The position numbers were made by a program, and so were the translations under genes. Below the pieces are notes generated by a model. The model had not been told where the DNA came from. It did no database searches and saw nothing but the letters and a program-made list of their open reading frames with translations. A stretch of 64,000 nucleotides of DNA from contig NZ_JACGWV010000002.1 in the NCBI RefSeq assembly GCF_014137995.1, positions 1,426,001 to 1,490,000 of the forward strand, given 5' to 3'. This document shows, piece after piece, positions 7,650-60,396 of the stretch. How positions within the stretch are numbered: position 1 is the stretch's first letter; every line of letters starts with the position of its first letter. The stretch comes from Promicromonospora sukumoe (lineage in GTDB: Bacteria > Actinomycetota > Actinomycetes > Actinomycetales > Cellulomonadaceae).

Positions 7650-9971
7650 GTGTCCGACGACGCCCTGACTCCCCCAGCGGCCGCCCCCGCGGCCGACCGA
7701 CCGACGGCCGTGCGGGTCCTCCCGCCGTCCGAACCGCCCTTCACCGTGCGGCGCCCGAGCGAGCGCACCTTCCACGGCGACACCTTCACCGACGACTACG
7801 AGTGGCTCCGCACCAAGGAGGACCCCGAGGTCGTCGCGCACCTGGAGGCGCAGAACGCCTGGACCCTGGACCGCCAGGCGCACCTCGCGCCGCTGCGGCA
7901 GACCCTGTTCGACGAGATCAAGGGCCGCACGCTGGAGACCGACCTCTCGGTCCCCGCGCGCGACGGCGACTGGTGGTACTACGCCCGCACGGTCGAGGGC
8001 CAGCAGTACCCGATCCACGCGCGCTACCCCGTCGCCGGCCCGGACGACTGGACGCCCCGCGTCCTGGAACCGGGGCAGCCGGTGCCGGGCGAGCAGATCA
8101 TGCTGGACCAGAACGCCCAGGCGGAGGGTCACGACTTCTTCGCCCTCGGGTCGCTCGACGTCTCCGACGACGGCACCCGCCTGCTGTACGCGACCGACAC
8201 CGCGGGCGACGAGCGCTACACGCTCCGCGTCCGTGACCTCGCCACGGGTGAGGACCTCCGCGACGAGGTGCGCGAGACCGCGCCCGGCGCCATGTTCACC
8301 CCCGACGGCCAGCACGTCTTCTACCTGACCGTCGACGAGGCCTGGCGGCCCTGGCGCGTCTGGCGCCACCGGCTCGGCACCCCCGGATCCGACGACGTGC
8401 TGGTGTTCGAGGAGCCCGACGAGCGGTACTGGGTGGGCGTGGGCCTCTCCCGGTCCAAGAAGTACCTGCAGATCGAGCTCGGCTCCAAGGTGACGAGCGA
8501 GTCGTGGCTGCTGGAGTCCGACGATCCGACGGGCGAGTTCCGCGTCGTCTGGCCCCGCCGCGAGGGCGTCGAGTACACGGTCGAGCACGCGGTGCTGCCG
8601 ACGTCGCTGGTCGAGCCTGTGTCGCTGGTCGAGCCTGTCGAGACCCAGGTCTCGACAGGCTCGACCGGCGACGTGCTCCTGATCCTGCACAACAAGGACG
8701 CGCTGAACTTCGAGCTGGTCGCCTCCCCCGTCCCCGCTCCCGGCGGGACGGTCGCCCCGGAGGCGGCGGACGTCGTCGTGCCGCACGACCCCGACGTGCG
8801 GCTGGAGGGCGTGAGCGCCAGCGAGCGCTACCTGGTGCTCTACTACCGCCGCGAGGCGATCTCCCGCTCCGCCGTGCTGTCGCTGGTCGAGCCCGTCGAG
8901 ACCGGCGAAGGCCCCGTCGGCTGGGACTTCCAGGAGATCTCGTTCGGTCAGCCGCTGGAGTCCGTCGGCGCGGGCGTGGGCGTCTGGGAGCAGCCCAACC
9001 TGAAGGTCGGCTACACGTCGTTCGTGACGCCGTCGTCGCTCTACCTGTACGACGTCGCCTCCGGCGAGCGCACCCTGCTCAAGCAGCAGCCGGTGCTCGG
9101 CGGCTACGACGCGGGCGACTACGACCAGCGCCGGGAGTGGGCCGTCGCCGAGGACGGGACGCGCGTGCCGGTCTCGCTGGTCTGGCGCAAGGACAAGGTG
9201 CGGTTCGGGGTCTCGACAGGCTCGACCACCGGGACGAGCGAGGCACCCGCCGAGCCCGCCCCCCTGCTCCTGTACGGCTACGGCGCGTACGAGTACTCGA
9301 TCGACCCGTACTTCTCGGTGTCCCGCCTGAGCCTGCTCGACCGCGGGGTCGTCTTCGCCGTCGCGCACGTCCGGGGCGGCGGCGAGATGGGCCGCTCCTG
9401 GTACGACGACGGCAAGCTCGCCGCGAAGCGCAACACGTTCACCGACTTCGTGGCCTGCGGCCGCCACCTCGTCGCCACCGGCTGGACGGCGTCCGACCGC
9501 ATGGTGGCCGACGGCGGCAGCGCCGGCGGGCTGCTCGTCGGCGCTGCCACCAACCTGGCGCCCGACCTGTTCACGGGGGTGCTGGCCGGGGTGCCGTTCG
9601 TCGACGCGCTGACGTCGATGCTCGACCCGACGCTCCCCCTGACCGTGACCGAGCGCGACGAGTGGGGCGACCCCCTGAACGACGCCGACGTGTACGCCTA
9701 CATGCGCTCGTACACCCCGTACGAGAACGTGTCCGACGACGCGTCGCGTTATCCCCAGGTGCTCGCGACCACCAGCTTCAACGACACCCGCGTGCTCTAC
9801 GTGGAGCCGGCGAAGTGGGTGGCGCGGCTGCAGGCAGCGGGCGCGCCGGCGATGCTGAAGATCGAGATGTCGGCCGGGCACGGCGGCGTCTCGGGGCGCT
9901 ACTCCGCGTGGGAGCAGGTCGCGTTCGAGCAGGCCTGGATCCTGGACGTGCTGGGCCTGGCCGGCCTCTGA
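7650..9971 (+). CDS. Oligopeptidase B-like serine peptidase (S9A)
   Basis: This 773-residue prolyl-oligopeptidase-family enzyme has an N-terminal beta-propeller and a C-terminal alpha/beta-hydrolase. The catalytic Ser is in GGSAGG (residue 624), Asp in FNDTR (712) and His in AGHGG (744). DDYEWLR near the N terminus and HVRGGGEMG are typical of oligopeptidase B (PtrB), which cuts short peptides after basic residues. There is no signal peptide, so it is probably cytoplasmic. It is about 60 residues longer than usual. The excess includes in-frame REP-derived peptides near residues 319-340 (LVEPVET plus STGST), 410-418 (LVEPVET) and 520-527 (VSTGSTT), all in probable surface loops. GTG start, probably leaderless. 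Confidence 0.88.
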   Translation: MSDDALTPPAAAPAADRPTAVRVLPPSEPPFTVRRPSERTFHGDTFTDDYEWLRTKEDPEVVAHLEAQNAWTLDRQAHLAPLRQTLFDEIKGRTLETDLSVPARDGDWWYYARTVEGQQYPIHARYPVAGPDDWTPRVLEPGQPVPGEQIMLDQNAQAEGHDFFALGSLDVSDDGTRLLYATDTAGDERYTLRVRDLATGEDLRDEVRETAPGAMFTPDGQHVFYLTVDEAWRPWRVWRHRLGTPGSDDVLVFEEPDERYWVGVGLSRSKKYLQIELGSKVTSESWLLESDDPTGEFRVVWPRREGVEYTVEHAVLPTSLVEPVSLVEPVETQVSTGSTGDVLLILHNKDALNFELVASPVPAPGGTVAPEAADVVVPHDPDVRLEGVSASERYLVLYYRREAISRSAVLSLVEPVETGEGPVGWDFQEISFGQPLESVGAGVGVWEQPNLKVGYTSFVTPSSLYLYDVASGERTLLKQQPVLGGYDAGDYDQRREWAVAEDGTRVPVSLVWRKDKVRFGVSTGSTTGTSEAPAEPAPLLLYGYGAYEYSIDPYFSVSRLSLLDRGVVFAVAHVRGGGEMGRSWYDDGKLAAKRNTFTDFVACGRHLVATGWTASDRMVADGGSAGGLLVGAATNLAPDLFTGVLAGVPFVDALTSMLDPTLPLTVTERDEWGDPLNDADVYAYMRSYTPYENVSDDASRYPQVLATTSFNDTRVLYVEPAKWVARLQAAGAPAMLKIEMSAGHGGVSGRYSAWEQVAFEQAWILDVLGLAGL
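8607..8666 (+). repeat. REP-like element: partial copy plus a 40-bp inverted pair inside the oligopeptidase gene
   Basis: A partial copy (CTGGTCGAGCCTGT) at 8607-8620 is followed by a full inverted pair. GGTCGAGCCTGTCGAGACC lies at 8627-8645, then 2 nt, then its exact reverse complement at 8648-8666. The reading frame stays open and encodes LVEPV.LVEPVET.VSTGST. Confidence 0.85.
8884..8902 (+). repeat. REP-like element, single copy in the oligopeptidase gene
   Basis: GGTCGAGCCCGTCGAGACC is a one-base variant of the 19-bp element. It is in frame and encodes the VEPVET peptide. Confidence 0.75.
9209..9227 (-). repeat. REP-like element, single inverted copy in the oligopeptidase gene
   Basis: GGTCTCGACAGGCTCGACC is the exact reverse complement of the 19-bp element. 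It is read in frame as VSTGST just before the catalytic domain. Confidence 0.75.
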
Positions 9972-15396: not shown

Positions 15397-18300
15397 CTAG
15401 GTGCCGATCAGGCGCAGGAATCCGCCGAGCTCCATGAGGTGACGCACGCCGTCGGCCTCCAGGTCGCCCGGCAGGTAGTCGGTGAGCCGGGGCGACGAGA
15501 CCACGACGGCCCGCCACTGCGCGCGCGACACCCCCACGTTGATGCGGTTCCGCGACAGCAGGAAGCCCATGCCACGGGACACGTTCTCGGGGGCCGAGGC
15601 GGCGAGCGTCAGGATCGCGACCGGCGCCTCCCGCCCCTGGAACATGTCCACGGTGCCGACGGGCACGCCGTCGAGCCCGGCCGCACGCAGCGCCTGGCGC
15701 ACCGTGTGGACCTGCGCGTTGTACGCGGCGACCACCACCACGTCGTCGGGGCCGAGCGGCCGGGCCGGGCGACCCGCACCGGGGTCCCACGTGCGGCCGA
15801 CGACGGACCGCACCTGGCGCGCCACCTCGTCGGCCTCCTCCCGGGACGACGTCGAGCGCCCCTCGTGGACCACCGGCACGTGCACCACCCCGGGCGGCAC
15901 CCCGTCGAGCGAGCGCTCGGTCGTGACCGGGTGCGCGAAGAGCCGGCCGGCGTACGAGAGCTGGGACACGGCGGCGCAGACCTCGGGGTGCATCCGCCAC
16001 GACTCGGGCAGCAGGTAGCCCAGCCCCTCGGGCAGCACGGCACTGCCGGCGGCGAGCCACGCGAGCGCCGACTCGTCCACCGGTTCGGGGTGCCGGCCCT
16101 GGCTGACCTGCGGAAGCTGCTGCGGGTCGCCGAGCAGCAGCAGCCGCTGCGCGGCCCGGCCGACGGCGACCGTGTCGGCGAGCGAGAACTGCCCGGCCTC
16201 GTCGATCACGAGCAGGTCCAGGCCCTCGTCGGGCCAGCGCTCGTGCGCGAAGTCCCACGCGGTGCCGCCCACCACGCAGCCGCCGTCGCTGGTCGCGGCG
16301 AACTCCGCGAGCTGGGTGCCCGAGAGCTCCTGCCACGGGCCGGCGGCCTCGTTCCCGATGCCCTTCGCCCGCTGCTTCTTGGCGACCACCTCGACGGGCA
16401 CCCCCGCCTTGTCGACCAGGCAGGTCAGCAGGTTCTCCACCGCCGCGTGCGACTGCGCCACCACGCCCACACGCCAGCCGGAGCCGACGAGCCGGGCCAC
16501 GACGTGCGAGCCGACGTGCGTCTTGCCGGTCCCGGGCGGGCCCTGCACCGCGAGGTAGGAGTGGTCGAGCCGCTGGACCGCGGAGAGCACGGCGGCCTCG
16601 AGGTGCCGCCCGGTCGCGTCTCCTTCGGCGGGCGTGTCGGGGGTGCCGGCCGCGCCTTCTCGTTCGGCGGTCGTGTCGGGTGTGCCGGCCGCACCCGTGG
16701 CGCCGCCGAGCTCCGGCAGGTCCCCGCCGCCGACCAGCCGCGGCGGCCTGCGGCGCAGCAGGTCGATCGCGGCGCCGTCCGGCAGGGTGCGGTCCGTGGT
16801 CCACGCGGCGAGCGCGGCCCGCGCGGCGTCCTCGGTCGCCCGCTCCTGCGCGTCGTGCGCCGGGCCGCGCTGCGGCGCGAGTGCCACGGGTGCCTGGTCG
16901 TGCGGTTCCGCGCCGCCGGACAGCCGCTCGCGCAGCACCACGACGTCGCGGCCGCGGGGCGCCTCGTCGGTCCCGGGTTCCTCCCGGACCTCCAGGATCG
17001 TGCCGCCGGAGTGCTCGCCGCGCACGGCCCGCACCTCCAGCGGGCCCACGACCGGGGGCACCGGCTGGTCGTAGAGCACGTGCACCGGGTCGCCGACGCC
17101 CAGGTCGGACCCGTCGATCCGCGACCCGTCGAGCATCCGGCCCACCAGCTCGACCTCGCGGGAGGGCAGCCGGTCCCGGCCCACGACGCCCCAGTCCCGC
17201 AGCACGCGGGTTTGTTCCACGTGGAACGTCGACCGGCGGCCGGGCCACTCGTCCAGCGGCAGCTCCAGGCGGGCGAAGTGCTCCTGCCAGAAGGGCTTCT
17301 CCTCCCGCTGGTAGTAGCCGACGGCGGCACCCAGCAGCGCGAGCGCCTGCACGTCCAGCGAGCGGTCGCCCCGGTTCTCGCCGACCCGTTCGGCGATGTC
17401 GGCGGCCAGCGCCAGCCGCCGGTCCCGGGCCTCCCGCCGCGCCTCGGCCCGTACCGCCGCCGCTTCCCCGTTCCCGCCTGCGGCGGGAACGGGCGGTTCT
17501 CCCCCGCTGCCGCCGGCAGGCTCACCCGGGCCCGACCCGGCGAACCCGGTCTCGACGGGCTCGACCTGCGTGGGGACCCGTCCGGCCGTCCCGATCTCGA
17601 CAGGCTCGACCTGCGTCGGCGCGGGTCCGGTCGCGGCGATCCTGGTCTCGACAGGCTCGACCCGCGAGGGCGGATCGACCCGCGAGGGCGGCACGGTCGG
17701 CGGGGGCACCACCCGGGCCGACCCGTCCTCGACCAGCGGGGGCAGCGACGTCACGGACCCGGTCTCGACGGTCTCGACCAGCGAGGGCCTCGGCCCCCGG
17801 GCCCAGCGCAGCCAGTCCAGCAGCCGCAGCGTCGACCGGCAGTCGTACTCGTTGTAGTCCAGGATGCGCTGCTTCAGTGCCGCCGCCCGCTCGTCGCCGT
17901 CGGCGGCGAGCTTCGCGTACTCCGCGTACTCGGTGACCGAGGCCGTGGCGCTCGTGACCCCCTCCCGCGCGGGATCGTCCTGCATGTAGAGCGGTTCGAG
18001 CTTCTTGATCGACTTGGACCGGTTGGAGATGCGCAGGCACGACCGGACCACCGCGTAGAGGTCGACGAGCACGCCGTCGCGCAGGAGCTGGTCCACCTCG
18101 TCCTCGTAGACGCCATGGCGGGCCGCGATCGAGAGCAGGTGCGTCTTCTCGTAGGCGGCGTAGTGGTAGACGTGCAGGTCGGGGTAGGTCTCGAGCCGTG
18201 CGCGCAGGTGGTCCACGAACCGCACGAGCGCGTCGCGCTCGCCCACCAGGTCGTCGGCCCAGAGCCCGTGGAACGGCGGAGTCCCGTCGTCCGGGCCGGG

Positions 18301-39151: not shown

Positions 39152-42100
39152 GTGAGTACCGAGCCTTCTTCCACCCCAGTGTCCGACGGCGACCGCGGCC
39201 GCGCGGGCGGGGGCCGGAACCGTCGTCGTGGCTCGGGCAGGCAGACGAGCAACCCGAACCGCCGGCCGCGCCGGACCGGCCCGCAGCGCGTCTCCACGGA
39301 ACAGCTCGAGGCGGCCGCCGCCAAGCGCGCCGCCGTCGAGATGCCGCCCATCACCTACCCGGCGCAGCTGCCCGTCTCGGCGCGGCGCGAGGACATCGCC
39401 GCGGCGATCCGCGACCACCAGGTCGTGATCGTCGCGGGCGAGACCGGGTCCGGCAAGACGACGCAGATCCCGAAGATCGCGCTCGAGCTCGGCCGGGGAC
39501 GCCAGGGCCAGATCGGGCACACCCAGCCCCGCCGGCTGGCGGCACGCACCGTCGCGGAGCGCATCGCGGAGGAGCTCGGCACGCAGCTCGGCGGCGTCGT
39601 CGGCTACCAGGTGCGGTTCACCGACCAGTCCAGCGACGAGACGCTGGTCAAGGTCATGACCGACGGCATCCTGCTCGCCCAGATCCAGCGCGACCCGCAG
39701 CTCCTGGCCTACGACACGATCATCATCGACGAGGCGCACGAGCGGTCCCTCAACATCGACTTCCTGCTCGGCTACCTGTCGCGGCTGCTGCCCCAGCGGC
39801 CCGACCTCAAGCTGATCATCACCTCGGCCACGATCGACTCGGAGCGGTTCGCGGCCCACTTCTCCCCCGCCGCCCTCGCCGGGCGCGGCGGCGCTCCCGA
39901 GTACGTCACGGACGTGCTGCCGGACCTCGCCCCGATCGTCGAGGTCTCCGGCCGGACGTTCCCGGTCGAGATCCGCTACAAGCCGCTGTCGCCGGACGAG
40001 GGTCAGGACGACGGCTCCTCGCCGGTCGAGCCTGTCGAGACCCCTGGTGGGTCCCGAGGGGCTCGACCGGCGCGGGCCAAGAAGGGCAGGGCGCGCGGCG
40101 ACGAGGAGAAGGACCTGGTCACGGGCATCATCGAGGCCTGCGACGAGCTGATGCGGGAGGGCAGCGGCGACATCCTCGTGTTCCTCTCGGGCGAGCGCGA
40201 GATCCACGACGCCGCCGACGGCCTCGCCGGCCACCTGAAGGAACGCGCGCGCGACCCCAAGCACCCGCAGCACGTCGAGATCCTGCCGCTGTACGCGCGC
40301 CTGTCGAGCGCCGAGCAGCACCGGGTGTTCCAGCAGCACGCGTCGCGGCGCATCGTGCTGGCGACCAACGTCGCCGAGACCTCGCTGACCGTGCCGGGCA
40401 TCCACTACGTGGTGGACCCCGGGACGGCGCGCATCAGCCGCTACTCCAAGCAGACCAAGGTGCAGCGGCTGCCCATCGAGCCGATCTCCCAGGCCTCGGC
40501 CAACCAGCGCAGCGGCCGCTCCGGCCGGGTCGCCGACGGCATCGCGATCCGCCTCTACTCCGAGGAGGACTTCGACGGCCGGTCGGAGTTCACCGAGCCC
40601 GAGATCCTGCGCACCTCGCTGGCGTCGGTGCTGCTGCAGATGATCTCGGTCGGCGTGGTCGCCACGCCCGACGACGTCGCCCGCTTCCCCTTCGTCGAGC
40701 CGCCGGACACCCGCGCGATCCGCGACGGCGTGCAGCTCCTGACCGAGCTCGGCGCCCTGGAGGAGGAGGACGGGGTCACCCGGCTCACCGAGGTGGGCCG
40801 CACGCTCGCCCAGCTCCCGATGGACCCGCGTCTGGCGCGCATGGTCATCGAGGGCTCGAAGCACGGCGTCGCCCGCGAGGTCGCGATCGTCGCGGCCGCG
40901 CTCTCGATCCAGGACCCCCGCGAGCGCCCCGCCGAGCAGCGCGCGCAGGCCGACCAGCTGCACGCCCGGTTCGCCGACCCACGCTCCGACTTCCTCACCT
41001 ACCTCAACCTCTGGGAGTACGTGCGGGAGCAGCAGCGGCTGCTGTCCAGCTCGGCGTTCCGCCGGCAGTGCAAGGCCGAGTACCTCAACTTCCTGCGCAT
41101 CCGCGAGTGGCAGGACGTCGTGGCGCAGCTCCGCGAGATGGCCAAGCCCCTGGGCATCGAGATGTCGTTCCAGCCGCGCCACCGCGCGTCGAGCCAGGAC
41201 CGCGGGTCGAGCCAGGACCGCGGGTCGAGCCAGGACCGCGGGTCGAGCCTGTCGAGACCGGAAGAGGCCTCGACAGGCTCGACCACCGATGTCGCGGAGG
41301 AGACGGCGTCGTACCGGCAGACCTGGGACGACGACACGATCCACCGGTCCCTGCTGGCGGGCCTCCTGTCGCAGATCGGCATGCAGGACACCGGCGAGGT
41401 CAAGGCGTCCGCCGTCGCGCACCTGCGCGGGACCCAGCGCGAGATCGCGCTGAAGCGCGCGAAGAAGCAGGCCCGCAACGAGTACGTCGGCGCCCGCGGG
41501 GCGCGGTTCGCGATCTTCCCCGGTTCGCCCCTGTCCAAGAAGCCGCCCGTGTGGATCATGGCGGGCGAGCTGGTCGAGACCAGCCGCCTGTGGGCCCGCG
41601 ACGTCAGCCGCATCCAGCCCGAGTGGGCCGAGGACCTCGCCGGGCCGCTCGCGAAGCGCACCTACTCCGAGCCGCACTGGTCCAGCAAGCAGGGCGCGGC
41701 GATGTGCACCGAGAAGGTGCTGCTGTACGGGGTGCCCATCGTGTCCGACCGCCGCGTGCTCTACGCCAAGGTGGACCCCGAGGCCGCGCGCGAGATGTTC
41801 GTGCGGCACGCGCTCGTGCAGGGCGAGTGGACCACGCACCACCGGTTCTTCCACGACAACCGCGCCCTCCTGGAGGAGGCCGGCGAGCTGGAGGCACGCT
41901 CCCGGCAGCGCGGCCTGGTCGCGGACGAGGACGACCTGTTCGCCTTCTACGACGAGCGCGTGCCCGACTCCGTGGTCTCCGCGGCGCACTTCGACCGCTG
42001 GTGGTCGCGGGCCCGCAAGGAGACGCCCGACCTGCTCGCCTTCACCATGGAGCAGCTCGTCGGCGACGCCTCCGTGGACACGGCCGAGTTCCCGGAGAGC

Positions 42101-55887: not shown

Positions 55888-57285
55888 TCAGCGGTCGAAG
55901 AGGCGGCCGAGCAGACCCTTGCGTCGCGGACGATCCGCTCCCTCCGAGGACTCCTTGGACTCCGGAGCCCCCGGACGGTCGCCCTCCGGGCGGGTCAGCC
56001 GGGTGACCTCGATCAGCGCCTGACCGTGCAGCTCCAGCAGCCGGTTCGCCACCGCGATCGCGTCGGGCAGCGCCGGCGGGTTCGCACGGTCGGGCACCAA
56101 CCCGGCGGCCTTGAGGCCGGGCGGCACGGTCCCGGCGTCGAGCTGCTCGGCCCAGACGGCCGGGTCGAGGTTCAGGAACTCGGGGTCCGACGACGAGCCG
56201 GGGTCGGCCTCCTCGTCCTCCGACCTGTCCGCCCGGTCCGGCCCGTCCACCGTCGGGTCCGAGCCGGCTCGGCCCACGCTGGCTCGGCCGGAGCCCTCCA
56301 GGTCGACGTCGCCGGACCCGGACCCCTGCCCCACGAGAAGCGCCGTCAGGCTCTCGGCCCGATACACCGCCCCGGCGTGCTGCTCGTGGTCAAGCAATAC
56401 GACCTGACCCACGCGGCCGTTCGACGCCGGCGCGAGGTCGGCGGCGAAGACGTTCCCGGCGCCGTCGGTCCCGACCGGGAACCAGAGAGGCGAACCGATC
56501 GCGGCCCGCACCCGGCCCGCGGGGTCGGCCGGGGCCGAGGTGCCGGCGTCGGCGGTCCAGGTGCTGAAGCGGGCCGCGGGCAGGAACGCCTCGCGGAGAA
56601 AGCTCCCGCGCAGCGGCACGATCTCGAACCCGCCGAACCCACCCTGCTCGGCCGCGAGGCTCAGGTTGCCCGATCCGGCCGCCGCGTACAGCGCCCGCAC
56701 CTCGTCCGGCAGCCGTGCGCCGTCGGGCAGCGCCGCCTCAGCCTCGTCGATCTCCGCGGCCTCCGCGCCAGCGGCGTCGGGCATCCGGTCCGCAATCAGC
56801 CGGGTCACGGCGTCCGGGTCGGCCGACGCCGCGGGTGCGCCGTCCGGCGGCGGCGAGATCGTCTCCCGGTACCGCGCCGGCAGCGCGCCGGGCTCCAGCA
56901 CCACCTCGAGCACCGGCGTGACCGGCCCGGACACCACCGAGGGCGGCAGGTCGACGAGCTCGACCACGTCGTCGGCGGGGCGCGGGCCGGCGACGACCCG
57001 CACCGTCTGCCCGTCGTCGGGCGACAGGTCCGCGATCGCGCGGAGGGCGTCGTCCAGCTCGGCCTTGGGCCCGCGCCCGCCGGTCCGGGCGGCCTCCCGC
57101 GCGGCCTCGCGGTAGTGCGCGCGCCGGGCATCGGCGTCGCCGTCGTCCAGGTAGGACCCGTCCCACGCGCCGCCGCCCACGGTCCCGGCGAACTCGCTGA
57201 CGTCGGTCCCGGGTGGCGCCGAGCGTCGGAGCGCGTCGACGAAGGGTGCCCAGGTCTGCCACTCGGTGAGGCTCACGACCCACAT
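55888..57285 (-). CDS. SMI1/KNR4 (SUKH)-like domain protein
   Basis: This 465-residue soluble protein has an N-terminal region of unknown fold (residues 1-150, LTEWQTWAPFVDALRRS) and a SUKH-like domain near 165-310 (LPDEVRALYAAAGSGNLSL, GGFEIVPLRGSF, WFPVGTDGAGNVFAADLAP, VVLLDHEQH). A disordered acidic stretch and a basic C-terminal tail (RPRRKGLLGRLFDR) follow. SUKH domains often act as immunity proteins or scaffolds; no toxin gene is near. The ATG at 57285 is chosen; a GTG at 57276 is also possible. It is divergent from the PRPP-synthetase-like gene with 51 bp between them, so promoters overlap. Confidence 0.7.
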   Translation of the reverse strand: MWVVSLTEWQTWAPFVDALRRSAPPGTDVSEFAGTVGGGAWDGSYLDDGDADARRAHYREAAREAARTGGRGPKAELDDALRAIADLSPDDGQTVRVVAGPRPADDVVELVDLPPSVVSGPVTPVLEVVLEPGALPARYRETISPPPDGAPAASADPDAVTRLIADRMPDAAGAEAAEIDEAEAALPDGARLPDEVRALYAAAGSGNLSLAAEQGGFGGFEIVPLRGSFLREAFLPAARFSTWTADAGTSAPADPAGRVRAAIGSPLWFPVGTDGAGNVFAADLAPASNGRVGQVVLLDHEQHAGAVYRAESLTALLVGQGSGSGDVDLEGSGRASVGRAGSDPTVDGPDRADRSEDEEADPGSSSDPEFLNLDPAVWAEQLDAGTVPPGLKAAGLVPDRANPPALPDAIAVANRLLELHGQALIEVTRLTRPEGDRPGAPESKESSEGADRPRRKGLLGRLFDR

Positions 57286-57324
57286 GATGCCTGTTCCCGC
57301 TCGGCGTGTCGGCCCGACGTTCCG

Positions 57325-57330
57325 TAGACT
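57325..57330 (+). promoter_or_regulatory. -10 element of a probable leaderless promoter (prs-like gene)
   Basis: TAGACT ends 6 nt before the ATG at 57337 and no ribosome site is present. Confidence 0.5.
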
Positions 57331-57336
57331 CCAGCC

Positions 57337-58287
57337 ATGGCCGAGGTGAGGGTCTTTGCCGGTACCGGGGGCCAGCGATTCGCTCGGGAGATGTGTGCTG
57401 ATCTCGACGTGCCGCTGAGCCCGATCAACATCCAGCGCTTCGCGAACGACTGCCTGCAGGTCCAGCTCCTGGAGAACTGCCGCGAACGCGACGTCTATCT
57501 CGTGCAGCCAGTCGTGCGCCCCGCGCAGGAGAGCCTCATGGAGCTCCTGCTGATGATCGACGCCGCCAAGGGCGCGTCGGCCGGCCGGATCACCGCCGTC
57601 ATGCCGCACTTCGCGTACGCCCGCTCGGACAAGAAGGACGCACCGCGCATCTCGCTCGGGGGGCGCCTCGTCGCGGACCTGCTGGAGACGGCGGGCGTGA
57701 ACCGCATCCTCACGATGACGCTGCACGCGCCGCAGGTGCACGCGTTCTTCCGGGTGCCGACCGACCAGCTCAACGCGCTCCGCGAGCTCGCGGAGCACTT
57801 CCTGCCGAGCGACCTCTCGAAGGCCACGGTGGTCTCCCCCGACCTGGGCAACGCGAAGAGCGCGTCGGCGTTCGCGAAGATGCTCGGGGTCCCCGTCGCG
57901 GCGGCCGCGAAGGAGCGGTTCGACGGCGACCGGGTCGAGATCACGTCCCTGATCGGCGACGTCACCGGCCGCGACATCATCGTGCTCGACGACGAGATCG
58001 CCAACGGGTCGACCATCCTCGCGATCCTCGACCTGCTCCGCGAGCACGGCGCGCGCAGCGTGCGGATCGCCTGCACGCACGGCATCTTCGCCAACGACGC
58101 CGCGCACCGCATCGCGGCCGACCCCGACGTCGTCGAGATCGTCACCACCAACACGGTGCCGTCCACCGGGCTCCTGGCGCACGACAAGCTGACGGTGATC
58201 AGCGTCGCCCCGGCGTTCGCCGAGGCGGTCCGCCGCATCCACAGCGGCGAGTCGGTCAGCGCCCTCTTCGACCCCACCCACGTCTAG
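57337..58287 (+). CDS. Divergent ribose-phosphate pyrophosphokinase (PRPP synthetase) homologue
   Basis: This 316-residue protein follows Prs over its whole length (LMELLLMIDAAKGASAGRITAVMPHFAYARSDKK, LHAPQVHAFF, IGDVTGRDIIVLDDE, VAPAFAEAVRRIHSGESVSALFD). Prs makes PRPP from ribose 5-phosphate and ATP. Several normally invariant sites differ: the ATP-binding GRFSDGE region is QRFANDC, the catalytic KRR loop is KER, and the PRPP-binding DDxxDTAGT reads DDEIANGST. It may therefore be a paralogue with altered activity, with the housekeeping prs elsewhere. It is probably leaderless. REP-like elements follow the stop. Confidence 0.75.
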   Translation: MAEVRVFAGTGGQRFAREMCADLDVPLSPINIQRFANDCLQVQLLENCRERDVYLVQPVVRPAQESLMELLLMIDAAKGASAGRITAVMPHFAYARSDKKDAPRISLGGRLVADLLETAGVNRILTMTLHAPQVHAFFRVPTDQLNALRELAEHFLPSDLSKATVVSPDLGNAKSASAFAKMLGVPVAAAAKERFDGDRVEITSLIGDVTGRDIIVLDDEIANGSTILAILDLLREHGARSVRIACTHGIFANDAAHRIAADPDVVEIVTTNTVPSTGLLAHDKLTVISVAPAFAEAVRRIHSGESVSALFDPTHV

Positions 58288-58303
58288 GCCGCGCCCCGCC
58301 GCT

Positions 58304-58384
58304 GGTCGAGCTTGTCGAGACCCCGCCACTCGACCGCACCCGCCGGTCGAGCTGCACCCCCCGCTGGTCGAGCTTGTCGAGACC
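58304..58384 (+). repeat. Two forward REP-like elements upstream of the GIY-YIG gene
   Basis: GGTCGAGCTTGTCGAGACC occurs at 58304-58322 and 58366-58384, each preceded by CGCT or GCT. Between them is a partial copy (GGTCGAGC near 58345). The T in GCTTG distinguishes these from the GCCTG copies inside genes. Confidence 0.85.
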
Positions 58385-58436
58385 CCGCTCGATAGCTCAA
58401 GACTCGGCCCGTGAACAGTTTTCTTTGACACCTGGG

Positions 58437-58445
58437 TTATCCACA
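58437..58445 (+). promoter_or_regulatory. Consensus DnaA box
   Basis: TTATCCACA matches the high-affinity DnaA box exactly. It lies 7 nt after a TTGACA hexamer (58425-58430), upstream of the GIY-YIG gene. It is single, so it is not an origin by itself. Confidence 0.55.
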
Positions 58446-58495
58446 GATCCGCGACAAGCATCTCCGGACCCAGCTCCCCATGGCACCGTCACCCC

Positions 58496-58789
58496 ATGGC
58501 CCACATGTACATACTCCGGTGCGGCGACGGTTCGTTCTACGTCGGGAGCACTGTCGACCTCGAACGGCGCCTCTGTCAGCACAACGAAGGCGAGGGTGCC
58601 GCATACACGCGTCGGCGTCGACCCGTCGAGCTCGTTCACTCCGAGGAGTTCTCCCGCATCGACGACGCGTATGCCCGAGAGAAGCAGGTACAGGGCTGGT
58701 CTCGAGCGAAACGGCTGGCGCTCATCGAAGATCGCCTGGAAGCACTGCCGGAGCTTGCTCGCTCGAGGACAGGCGTCAGAACGCGGTGA
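58496..58789 (+). CDS. GIY-YIG nuclease domain protein (UPF0213-like)
   Basis: This 97-residue single-domain protein has MYILRCGDGSFYVGST (the GIY...YIG strand pair), ERRLCQHN with the catalytic Arg, AAYTRRRRPVELVHSEEF, and AYAREKQVQGWSRAKRLALI with the metal-binding Glu. GIY-YIG domains nick DNA with one metal ion; this small class has no proven role. The gene is visibly lower in GC than its neighbours (roughly 60 percent by eye). It is flanked by inverted 23-bp copies of the REP-like element (58362-58384 and 58800-58822). This suggests a mobile or repeat-associated unit. The usual start has no strong ribosome site. Confidence 0.85.
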   Translation: MAHMYILRCGDGSFYVGSTVDLERRLCQHNEGEGAAYTRRRRPVELVHSEEFSRIDDAYAREKQVQGWSRAKRLALIEDRLEALPELARSRTGVRTR

Positions 58790-58799
58790 GGCGCTTCAG

Positions 58800-58822
58800 G
58801 GTCTCGACAAGCTCGACCAGCG
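58800..58822 (-). repeat. Inverted REP-like element downstream of the GIY-YIG gene
   Basis: GGTCTCGACAAGCTCGACC (58800-58818), followed by AGCG, is the exact reverse complement of the 23-bp copy at 58362-58384. It starts 11 nt after the GIY-YIG stop. Confidence 0.85.
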
Positions 58823-58849
58823 ATGGAGTACCAGCCGACCTGTACCAGG

Positions 58850-60289
58850 TCACCCCCGCTCGGCCCACCACTTCCTGAGCTCCTCGGTCGCGACCTCCTC
58901 GCCCAGCGGCCCCCGCTCCATGCGCAGGCCCAGCAGGTACTTGTAGGCCTCGCCGACCTCGCGCGACGGCGAGATCCCGAGGATCTCCATGATCTGCGTG
59001 CCGTCGAGGTCGGGCCGGATCGCGTCGATCTCCTCCTGCTCGCGCAGCGCGGAGATGCGGTGCTCCAGGTTGGTGTACGCGTCGGACAGCCGCTTGGCCT
59101 TGCGCTTGTTGCGCGTGGTCGAGTCGGCGCGGGTGAGGCGGTGCAGCCGCTCCAGGAGCGGGCCGGCGTCGGTCACGTACCGCCGGACGGCGGAGTCGGT
59201 CCACGCGCCGTCGCCGTACCCGTGGAACCGCAGGTGCAGCTCGACGAGCCGCGACACGTCCTTCACCACCTGCTTCTCGTACTTGAGCGCCCGCAGCCGC
59301 TTGGTGGTGAGCTTGGCGCCGACCACCTCGTGGTGGTGGAAGCTCACGCCGCCGCCGGACTCGAAGCGCCGCGTGGCCGGCTTGCCGATGTCGTGCAGGA
59401 GCGCGGCGAGGCGCAGCACCAGGTCGGGCGCGGGCACCGCGCCGTCGGCCCCGGTCTCCTGCGCGATCGCCTGGTCGAGCACGGTGAGCGAGTGCTGGTA
59501 GACGTCCTTGTGCCGGTGGTGCTCGTCGATCTCGAGCTGGAGGGCCGGCAGCTCGGGCAGCACCTGGTCGGCGAGGCCCGTGTCGACCAGCACCTCGAGG
59601 CCCGCGCGCGGGTTGTCGCTCAGCAGCAGCTTGGTGATCTCCGCCTGCACCCGTTCGGCCGACACGATCTCGATCCGGTCCGCCATGGCGACCAGCGCGG
59701 CGAGCGTCCCCGGTTCCACGTGAAACGAGAGCTGGGCCGCGAACCGCGCGGCGCGCATCATCCGCAGCGGGTCGTCGTCGAACGACCGCTCGGGCGCGAT
59801 CGGCGTGCGCAGCACCCCGGCGGCGAGGTCGCTCAGCCCGTCGTACGGGTCGACGAAGGTCAGCTCGGGCACGCGCACCGCCATCGCGTTGACGGTGAAG
59901 TCGCGGCGCGACAGGTCGCCGTCGAGCGAGTCGCCGAACTCCACGAGCGGCTTGCGCGAGGCCGGGTCGTACTTGTCCGTCCGGTACGTCGTCACCTCGA
60001 CGACGACGTCGCCCCGGCGCGCCCCGATGGTGCCGAACTCCTTGCCGATGTCCCAGTGCGCGTCGCCCCAGCGTGCGAGGAGCCGCTGCGTCTGGTCCGG
60101 CGACGCCGACGTCGCGAAGTCGAGGTCGTTGCTCGCGCGGCCGAGGAACGCGTCGCGGACCGGACCACCGACCAGCGAGAGCTCGTGGCCGGCGGCGCGG
60201 AACTGCTCGCCCAGCTCGAGCGCGGCGGGCGCCATCTCGGTCAGCACGCCGAGCGCACGACGCAGCAGATCCTGTTCAGGGGTAGACAC
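58850..60289 (-). CDS. cca: CCA tRNA nucleotidyltransferase
   Basis: This 479-residue enzyme has a class II nucleotidyltransferase head, GGPVRDAFLGRASNDLDFATSA with the metal-binding Asp pair and DLSRRDFTVNAMAV, followed by PLRMMRAARFAAQL (tRNA-binding neck). A C-terminal HD domain (LRLAALLHDIGKPATRR, VSFHHHEVVG) is present. It adds or repairs the 3' CCA end of tRNAs in the cytoplasm. In Micrococcales it lies beside the NUDIX, DUF6049 and murJ genes, as here. The GTG at 60289 is chosen because a GAGAAT box stands 8 nt upstream and no ribosome site is found. Confidence 0.93.
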   Translation of the reverse strand: MSTPEQDLLRRALGVLTEMAPAALELGEQFRAAGHELSLVGGPVRDAFLGRASNDLDFATSASPDQTQRLLARWGDAHWDIGKEFGTIGARRGDVVVEVTTYRTDKYDPASRKPLVEFGDSLDGDLSRRDFTVNAMAVRVPELTFVDPYDGLSDLAAGVLRTPIAPERSFDDDPLRMMRAARFAAQLSFHVEPGTLAALVAMADRIEIVSAERVQAEITKLLLSDNPRAGLEVLVDTGLADQVLPELPALQLEIDEHHRHKDVYQHSLTVLDQAIAQETGADGAVPAPDLVLRLAALLHDIGKPATRRFESGGGVSFHHHEVVGAKLTTKRLRALKYEKQVVKDVSRLVELHLRFHGYGDGAWTDSAVRRYVTDAGPLLERLHRLTRADSTTRNKRKAKRLSDAYTNLEHRISALREQEEIDAIRPDLDGTQIMEILGISPSREVGEAYKYLLGLRMERGPLGEEVATEELRKWWAERG

Positions 60290-60297
60290 AGCCCAAG

Positions 60298-60303
60298 ATT
60301 CTC
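60298..60303 (-). promoter_or_regulatory. -10 element of a probable leaderless promoter (cca)
   Basis: On the minus strand GAGAAT within TGGGAGAAT lies 8 nt before the GTG start, as upstream of hrpA. Confidence 0.35.
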
Positions 60304-60396
60304 CCAGACCCGGCGCGGCCCCACTCACCGGGGACCAGCCCCTGCCCGAAACCGCCCGCACCCCCTCACCTGACCAGATCAAGGGTGGTCAGTCGG

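Follow-up and report, generated by a model that had tools for sequence, protein, structure and literature searches.

A small GIY-YIG protein as the probable endonuclease partner of a CG-tagged, REP-like hairpin family

We analysed a stretch of 64,000 nucleotides (called the window) from the 6.5 Mb, four-contig genome of Promicromonospora sukumoe. Between a ribose-phosphate pyrophosphokinase-type gene and a CCA/poly(A)-polymerase-type gene lies a segment that holds a short gene of the GIY-YIG family together with copies of a palindromic element, further copies of which are found elsewhere in the window (Table 1). A first-pass annotation, made from the sequence alone, had described a 97-residue GIY-YIG gene of lower GC bracketed by perfect 23-bp inverted copies of an element that also occurs inside three unrelated genes. 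This description was borne out in all its parts: the gene has a GC content of 63.6% compared to 72.3% for the window and its product matches PF01541, the inner left copy and the right copy are identical, and the peptidase, RNase_H_2/AAA and DEAD-box helicase reading frames all carry copies. The helicase combines a DEAD-box domain with DUF3418 according to its domain annotation and is presumably HrpA-like. A search of positions 57000-60000 against Rfam gave no convincing match (single hit with E = 0.78).

Table 1. Genes and element copies at the GIY-YIG locus and elsewhere in the window.
Feature	Position	Strand	Basis or remark
Head-to-head element pair inside S9 peptidase gene (prolyl oligopeptidase-type)	8627-8666	.	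additional copies: 8885, 9209
Four element copies (0 to 2 mismatches) inside RNase_H_2/AAA gene	17548-17779	-	
Element pair inside helicase gene	40024-40068	.	3 mismatches in the second copy
Second element pair in this helicase, at a variable linker	41241-41284	.	shorter or absent in four relatives
Ribose-phosphate pyrophosphokinase-type gene, left neighbour	57337-58287	+	
Segment with gene and repeats, between the ribose-phosphate pyrophosphokinase-type and CCA/poly(A)-polymerase-type genes	58288-58849	.	genus comparison
Outer left element copy (GGTCGAGCTTGTCGAGACC)	58304-58322	+	sequence reading and mismatch search
Inner left element copy with 5' CGCT tag (CGCT-GGTC-GAG-CTTG-TCGA-GACC)	58362-58384	+	sequence reading; tag conservation
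Putative GIY-YIG endonuclease gene	58496-58789	+	97 aa, single GIY-YIG domain (Pfam)
Right element copy, inverted, equal to 58362-58384 over 23 bp	58800-58822	-	sequence reading
CCA/poly(A)-polymerase-type gene, right neighbour	58850-60382	-	

The 97-residue protein scored 69.8 bits against PF01541 (cut-off 22.6) and showed no Pfam match to the Y1 (HUH) transposase domain, and among the NCBIfam models only TIGR01453 was hit, below its cut-off. In an alignment of 44 sequences, the window protein plus 43 picked for variety from the 80 first-set loci described below, Y15, R25, H29 and E62 were invariant and Y5 nearly so; we take the conserved tyrosines, arginine and glutamate to be those characteristic of GIY-YIG enzymes. 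Domain score and conserved residues together place the protein among the GIY-YIG nucleases, and nuclease activity is predicted. An AlphaFold2 model had a mean pLDDT of 89.9. The closest solved structures were UPF0213 proteins (1zg2, 1ywl), followed more weakly by Slx1, a branched-DNA nuclease. No second match of this kind was obtained in the host genome at E 0.01, and two further PF01541 matches lie in far longer frames.

The element is abundant in the host genome. Allowing up to three mismatches, GGTCGAGCYTGTCGAGACC matched the window 16 times versus 0.16 times expected in shuffles, a count that includes a match at 41563 which we rejected as an element because the four relatives compared all have it as ordinary coding sequence. 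Genome-wide, 142 exact copies were found (71 on either strand) and none of the pattern read backwards; with up to two mismatches there were 97 plus-strand and 103 minus-strand copies compared to 2 and 1 for the backwards pattern. Among 100 exact copies listed, 56 formed 28 plus/minus neighbour pairs with gaps below 60 bp, as opposed to a single minus/plus pair, and 22 of the 28 had a gap of 2, 6 or 7 bp. In the flanks of eight pairs, CGCT stood at the left of six and AGCG at the right of seven. A head-to-head pair is predicted to fold into a hairpin of 25 bp with -34.6 kcal/mol (z = -12.2 relative to shuffles). The lone 23-nt element folded no better than shuffles (z = -0.14), and the long element displayed a GA bulge in a fold not significantly above shuffles (z = -1.29). 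Tandem partial copies accompany the intragenic copies at 17548-17779 and 41190-41284, in protein linkers that differ between relatives; clean empty sites for intragenic copies were not found in the relatives compared. No support was obtained for element orientation simply following the direction of replication, the full lists of two genomes (G424 and G233) showing mixed strands. On one contig of another genome (G024, contig C3) all 33 listed elements lie on the same strand; many of them are direct copies at short spacing, in contrast to the head-to-head pairing seen in the host.

The surroundings of related genes were read in two sets of loci using the motif X4-GAG-loop-TCGA-X4' with X4 left free. 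The first set comprised the best 80 of 133 confirmed relatives (one genome per species), the window and four family members, i.e. 85 loci with at least one duplicate among them, as L060 and L117 contain the same elements and look like one locus taken twice. Independently of any repeat model, an inverted-repeat score of at least 15 was reached at 49 of the 80 homologue loci compared to 3 of 429 windows elsewhere in the loci. The motif was present within 350 bp of the gene at 77 of the 85 loci and was not found within this distance at the other 8; it was oriented plus on the left and minus on the right at 49 loci and oppositely at 18, some loci holding both arrangements. In control windows, which are mostly coding, the corresponding numbers were 43 of 289 for the motif and 2 of 289 for the left-plus/right-minus arrangement. 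The backwards motif occurred in the same flanks at 1 of 85 loci and in the left-plus/right-minus arrangement at none, and seven other core pairs were seen at 0 to 7 loci. Loci with the left-plus/right-minus arrangement include Actinobacteria, Cyanobacteria and Bacteroidota; five Fibrobacter loci have at most one motif copy each. The second set stems from a class-wide sample of 394 genomes, 39 of which carry the gene at 54 places including the window. Among the other 53, which were read, the motif was found at 48 and not at 5, and the left-plus/right-minus arrangement at 36, versus 81 and 4 of 193 control windows, which lie 800-1100 bp off and partly overlap the gene's own flanks. Dropping the 6 places shared with the first set left 47 further places, 42 of them with the motif and 32 with the left-plus/right-minus arrangement (backwards motif: 1 and 0).

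The repeats are lineage-specific and share one architecture, 5'-CGNN-X4-GAG-loop-TCGA-X4'-3', in which X4 types include GGTT, GGTC, GGCT, CCCT, CGTC, GATC and GACT. Depending on the stem type, the base at position -3 upstream of X4 was G in 80-100% of the copies, making G the majority in each stem type profiled, and the base at -4 was C in 45-100%. In the second set, G was found at -3 in 206 of 215 elements and the complete CG tag in 161 of 215. The 3' flanking bases mostly stayed below 60%, with values of up to 70% (CGTC type) and 82% (GATC type) for two types with few copies, and did not exceed 61% among 42 host copies. Since the upstream tag is conserved and the 3' flank bases mostly are not, the element is asymmetric and consists of CG-NN followed by the hairpin. 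Covariation was evaluated for one genome (G147) on 72 distinct elements from 83 listed of its 105 copies, chosen by their ends alone (a first run used 50). On average 4.00 of 6 inner-stem pairs were complementary compared to 2.97 after shuffling of the partners (at most 3.22 in 1000 shuffles), and one inner-stem position uses all four Watson-Crick pairs.

In a sample of the host family, the six gene-bearing genomes contained 142, 109, 96, 48, 0 and 0 exact copies. At least 48 copies were thus present in 4 of 6 genomes with the gene versus 3 of 115 without it (Fisher p = 6e-5), and 100 of these 115 held none. Three repeat-rich genomes without the gene (G077, G110 and G006 with 179, 69 and 66 exact copies) had no GIY-YIG relative at E 1e-6; because such genomes exist, the gene is not needed for the repeats to persist, which fits either gene loss after spreading or another source of repeats. 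Among the gene-bearing genomes of the class sample, 16 of 39 held at least five GGTT-type elements, compared to 7 of 355 lacking the gene (p = 5e-13), the difference being weaker within one family (13 of 24 versus 3 of 12). The sample was counted for GGTT, and most of the 23 gene-bearing genomes (of 39) with fewer than five GGTT elements have genes flanked by other types; at least five were present in 10 of 11 genomes with a GGTT-flanked gene compared to 6 of 28 other gene-bearing genomes. In a comparison covering 48 gene-bearing genomes, GGTT elements outnumbered GGTC elements in 16 of 22 genomes with GGTT-type flanks, and the reverse was seen in 8 of 10 with GGTC-type flanks. Of 12 genomes with CTGAG-type flanks, 6 had a broad count of at least three times the reversed control and 6 a lower one. 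Paralogues within one genome (G233) can differ in type, with GGTT at L172 and GGTC at L245 and L246. Mapped onto a FastTree of 156 enzymes, in which many forks are unresolved, the coarse repeat class changed 15 times compared to 48.4 times with shuffled labels (0 of 200 shuffles as low; 25 rows lacking a coarse label not counted). The enzyme clade goes with the repeat type, to which relatedness and taxonomy contribute, and relatedness alone can cluster labels. One of the genes of G233 (C1:2360695-2361584) is embedded in an alternating array of two repeat types (+ - + gene - + -), which resembles the BIMEs of enterobacteria.

More distant relatives were collected from plasmid records (34 found with the window protein, 32 with a relative from Azospirillum, which had no phage relative at E 1e-5), and 27 loci were taken for variety. 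Within 350 bp of the gene, hairpins with a CGTC-type tag were found both to its left and to its right at 14 of the 27 loci, to its right only at 4 (three of these being near-identical Rhizobium loci) and on neither side at 9. By flank, the count was 32 of 54; in control windows, which in part overlap the right flank, it was 19 of 108. In Azospirillum lipoferum, CGTCATCCCCGCGAAGGCGGGGATCCAG is found on either side of the gene, between sufB and sufC, and the Neisseria gonorrhoeae locus has CGTCATTCCCGC...GCGGGAATC copies; further tagged examples come from Shinella, Rhizobium CIAT894, Novosphingobium, Sphingobium, Neorhizobium and Aeromonas. Three of the nine untagged loci, those of Bacillus subtilis yazA and of a pair of Cupriavidus genes that group close to it, are without flanking repeats; one Sphingomonas locus has CTGAG-type copies at the left only, and a Methylobacterium locus has a different inverted 17-mer. 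In the other four, from Sphingomonas paeninsulae, Acidiphilium, Planktothrix and Spirosoma, no repeats were seen in the gene flanks. The tagged loci fall within a single supported branch of the tree, together with the Planktothrix and Spirosoma rows, which have no repeats. The Planktothrix relative (L239, 1181-2097), without CGTC-type repeats, has an MmeI-type restriction enzyme on one side and DISARM drmA on the other and was possibly recruited to a defence island.

CGTC-tagged REPs have been surveyed before (Di Nocera et al., 2013; PMC3733652). That survey describes a superfamily, apparently without a dedicated transposase, that includes dRS3 of Neisseria and the rickettsial RPE-4 and RPE-6, and it names A. 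lipoferum and S. meliloti; the GTAG class alone had an associated enzyme. A CGTC-type tag followed by a short stem-loop was found next to the distant GIY-YIG genes at L218, L222-L225, L229, L230, L232 and L236-L238, the tags at the distant loci being CGTC, TGTC or CCTC. In most, the stem starts with AT and there is a CCA tail, as in A. lipoferum, Shinella, Rhizobium, Neorhizobium, Sinorhizobium, Aeromonas and Neisseria (tail variable), whereas the Novosphingobium and Sphingobium repeats have the CGTC tag and a different stem start. The window element shares the CG at -4 and -3 with these repeats, its tag being CGCT, not CGTC, at 58362 and in most host copies, but differs in its GGTC stem, GA bulge and GAG/TCGA core and does not have the 8-9 bp AT-start stem and CCA tail of the superfamily.

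Sites lacking the gene were found in relatives. Among 13 genomes of the genus, the gene occupies the 58288-58849 site in two (G000 and G048); in the other 11 the neighbours are joined by a short spacer, gene and repeats both being absent. Over a 671-bp query, G105 (96% identity) and G077 (95%) lack the gene and G048 (92%) has it. As the two closest genomes are without the gene and the less close one carries it, more than one gain or loss in the genus is suggested. The sufB-sufC region of two Azospirillum relatives contains neither the gene nor the repeats, and in one Sphingobium relative both are absent from the site. Because the intergenic sequences also diverge outside the insert, no target-site duplication could be clearly recognised in Promicromonospora, Azospirillum or Sphingobium.

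The first-pass annotation had likened the locus to a REPtron and had suggested that the nuclease may generate, spread or be carried with the element. The analogy holds far beyond the window, the pattern of a gene between inverted repeats recurring in many loci; repeat abundance is not independent of the gene, some gene-less genomes being copy-rich all the same, and gene and flanking elements are absent together in relatives. As in REPtrons, in which the enzyme is a RAYT (TnpA-REP, HUH Y1), a small gene for a DNA-processing enzyme lies between inverted short palindromes that are dispersed in tens to hundreds of copies, form head-to-head pairs (REPINs) and have a short unpaired 5' tag at the foot of the hairpin. 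Unlike in REPtrons, the enzyme is of the GIY-YIG and not of the HUH/Y1 type, and the tag is CG-NN whereas RAYT-associated REPs carry GTAG. GIY-YIG domains also take part in DNA mobility in Penelope-like elements and in homing endonucleases of the I-TevI type, from which the present protein differs as a 97-aa single domain without intron, reverse transcriptase or DNA-binding extension. Its nearest solved structures belong to the UPF0213/YazA family, which has a similar single-domain size; unlike the window gene, yazA of B. subtilis and the Cupriavidus pair have no flanking repeats, and they lie on long branches apart from the window's group, with a placement that the program marks as unsure.

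We consider it probable, at roughly 70%, that this small protein serves a REP-like hairpin family as its dedicated GIY-YIG endonuclease, with gene and elements forming what may be called a 'GIY-YIG REPtron'. This reading builds on features that the sequences themselves display, namely the bracketing, the fixed anatomy of the element (CG tag, outer stem, GA bulge and a variable, self-complementary inner part with covariation), the abundance, the pairing of enzyme and repeat and their joint absence from empty sites, and further on the CGTC hairpins at distant loci, the conserved catalytic-type residues and the nearest structures. Counted against it are the copy-rich genomes without the gene, the gene-bearing genomes with fewer than five GGTT elements, the loci without the motif, the distant loci without CGTC-type hairpins, the CTGAG counts, the fold of the lone element, the poor resolution of the tree and the lack of a resolved target-site duplication. 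The enzyme would bind the hairpin extruded on single-stranded or cruciform DNA, formed by single elements or as the 25-bp hairpin of a pair, and would cut at the CG tag at its foot; host repair would then copy the element sequence at the break, allowing it to spread to new sites. Unlike for RAYTs, covalent transposase chemistry is not expected, since no covalent DNA-protein link is known for GIY-YIG enzymes, and for this reason the final step of spread would fall to host repair. The copies that bracket the gene would be the source and paired copies (REPINs) their non-autonomous derivatives.

Alternatively, the nuclease might recognise the elements and resolve or trim their cruciforms without spreading them, the elements spreading by other means. 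The weak structural similarity to Slx1, the hairpin predicted for paired elements and the persistence of copies in genomes without the gene speak for such a housekeeping role, but the gene is patchy and found at different sites together with its repeats, and an enzyme that only resolves cruciforms has no need of its own type of repeat in inverted copies around it; we regard this explanation as unlikely. Hairpins can terminate transcription, and the elements may be terminators or insulators around an acquired gene of low value where insertions are harmless. The low GC content of the gene agrees with this, yet neither the bias towards left-plus/right-minus (49 of 85 versus 18 of 85 for the opposite) nor the pairing of enzyme and repeat would be expected from it, and the B. 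subtilis and Cupriavidus relatives are without repeats, so that we consider it very improbable. Any gene trapped between inverted copies would resemble the window locus, and a nuclease without a role in the elements could be carried as part of a REP-gene-REP unit moved by a RAYT or IS transposase. According to Di Nocera et al. (PMC3733652), tyrosine transposases do occur in some species with CGTC repeats, but none of those genes is CGTC-flanked, and other transposases show only a few fortuitous associations with the repeats. Given further that one small enzyme family lies between the repeats across many genera and that its clades go with repeat classes, a passenger gene appears improbable. Chance or ascertainment could enter through the choice of the best-scoring relatives for the first set; the second set, drawn evenly from the class, agrees with the first and the backwards motif is almost never found in the same flanks, which leaves this explanation a negligible probability.

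The dedicated-endonuclease reading extends to a broader proposition, to which we give an even chance: GIY-YIG proteins may be a second, HUH-independent class of enzymes that create and spread REPs by cutting at the CG tag and relying on host repair for copying, and may be the missing enzyme of both the CGTC-tagged and the CGNN-X4-GAG/TCGA-X4' superfamilies. The latter, which spans Actinobacteria, Cyanobacteria, Bacteroidota and others, was not found described in the literature searched, and searches with six of the repeat sequences found no paper. Titles and the first parts of abstracts of the papers listed contained no link between GIY-YIG proteins and bacterial REP-like repeats; bioRxiv and most subscription journals were outside this coverage, and a prior description is possible. 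REP palindromes are widespread in bacteria, and for a large class of them the data suggest that the partner so far missing is a GIY-YIG enzyme, which makes the enzyme question testable with a 97-aa protein and oligonucleotides of 23-54 nt. If true, repeats would spread by a mechanism without a transposase, and matched enzyme-hairpin pairs would become available for recognition studies. The copy-rich genomes G077, G110 and G006 are useful for studying enzyme loss after spread.

At L037, L061, L091 and L092 (Microbacteriaceae-like), the longest exact inverted repeats around the gene are GTTTCACGTGAAAC, which we take to resemble the ParB site parS, and the gene may lie near a partition locus there. 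Eight loci (L062, L103, L114, L183, L186, L192, L253 and L262) form an enzyme branch with a support of 97, and none of them has any of the common X4 labels; L062, L103 and L114 among them contain variant inverted repeats such as TCGCTCAACGACC.
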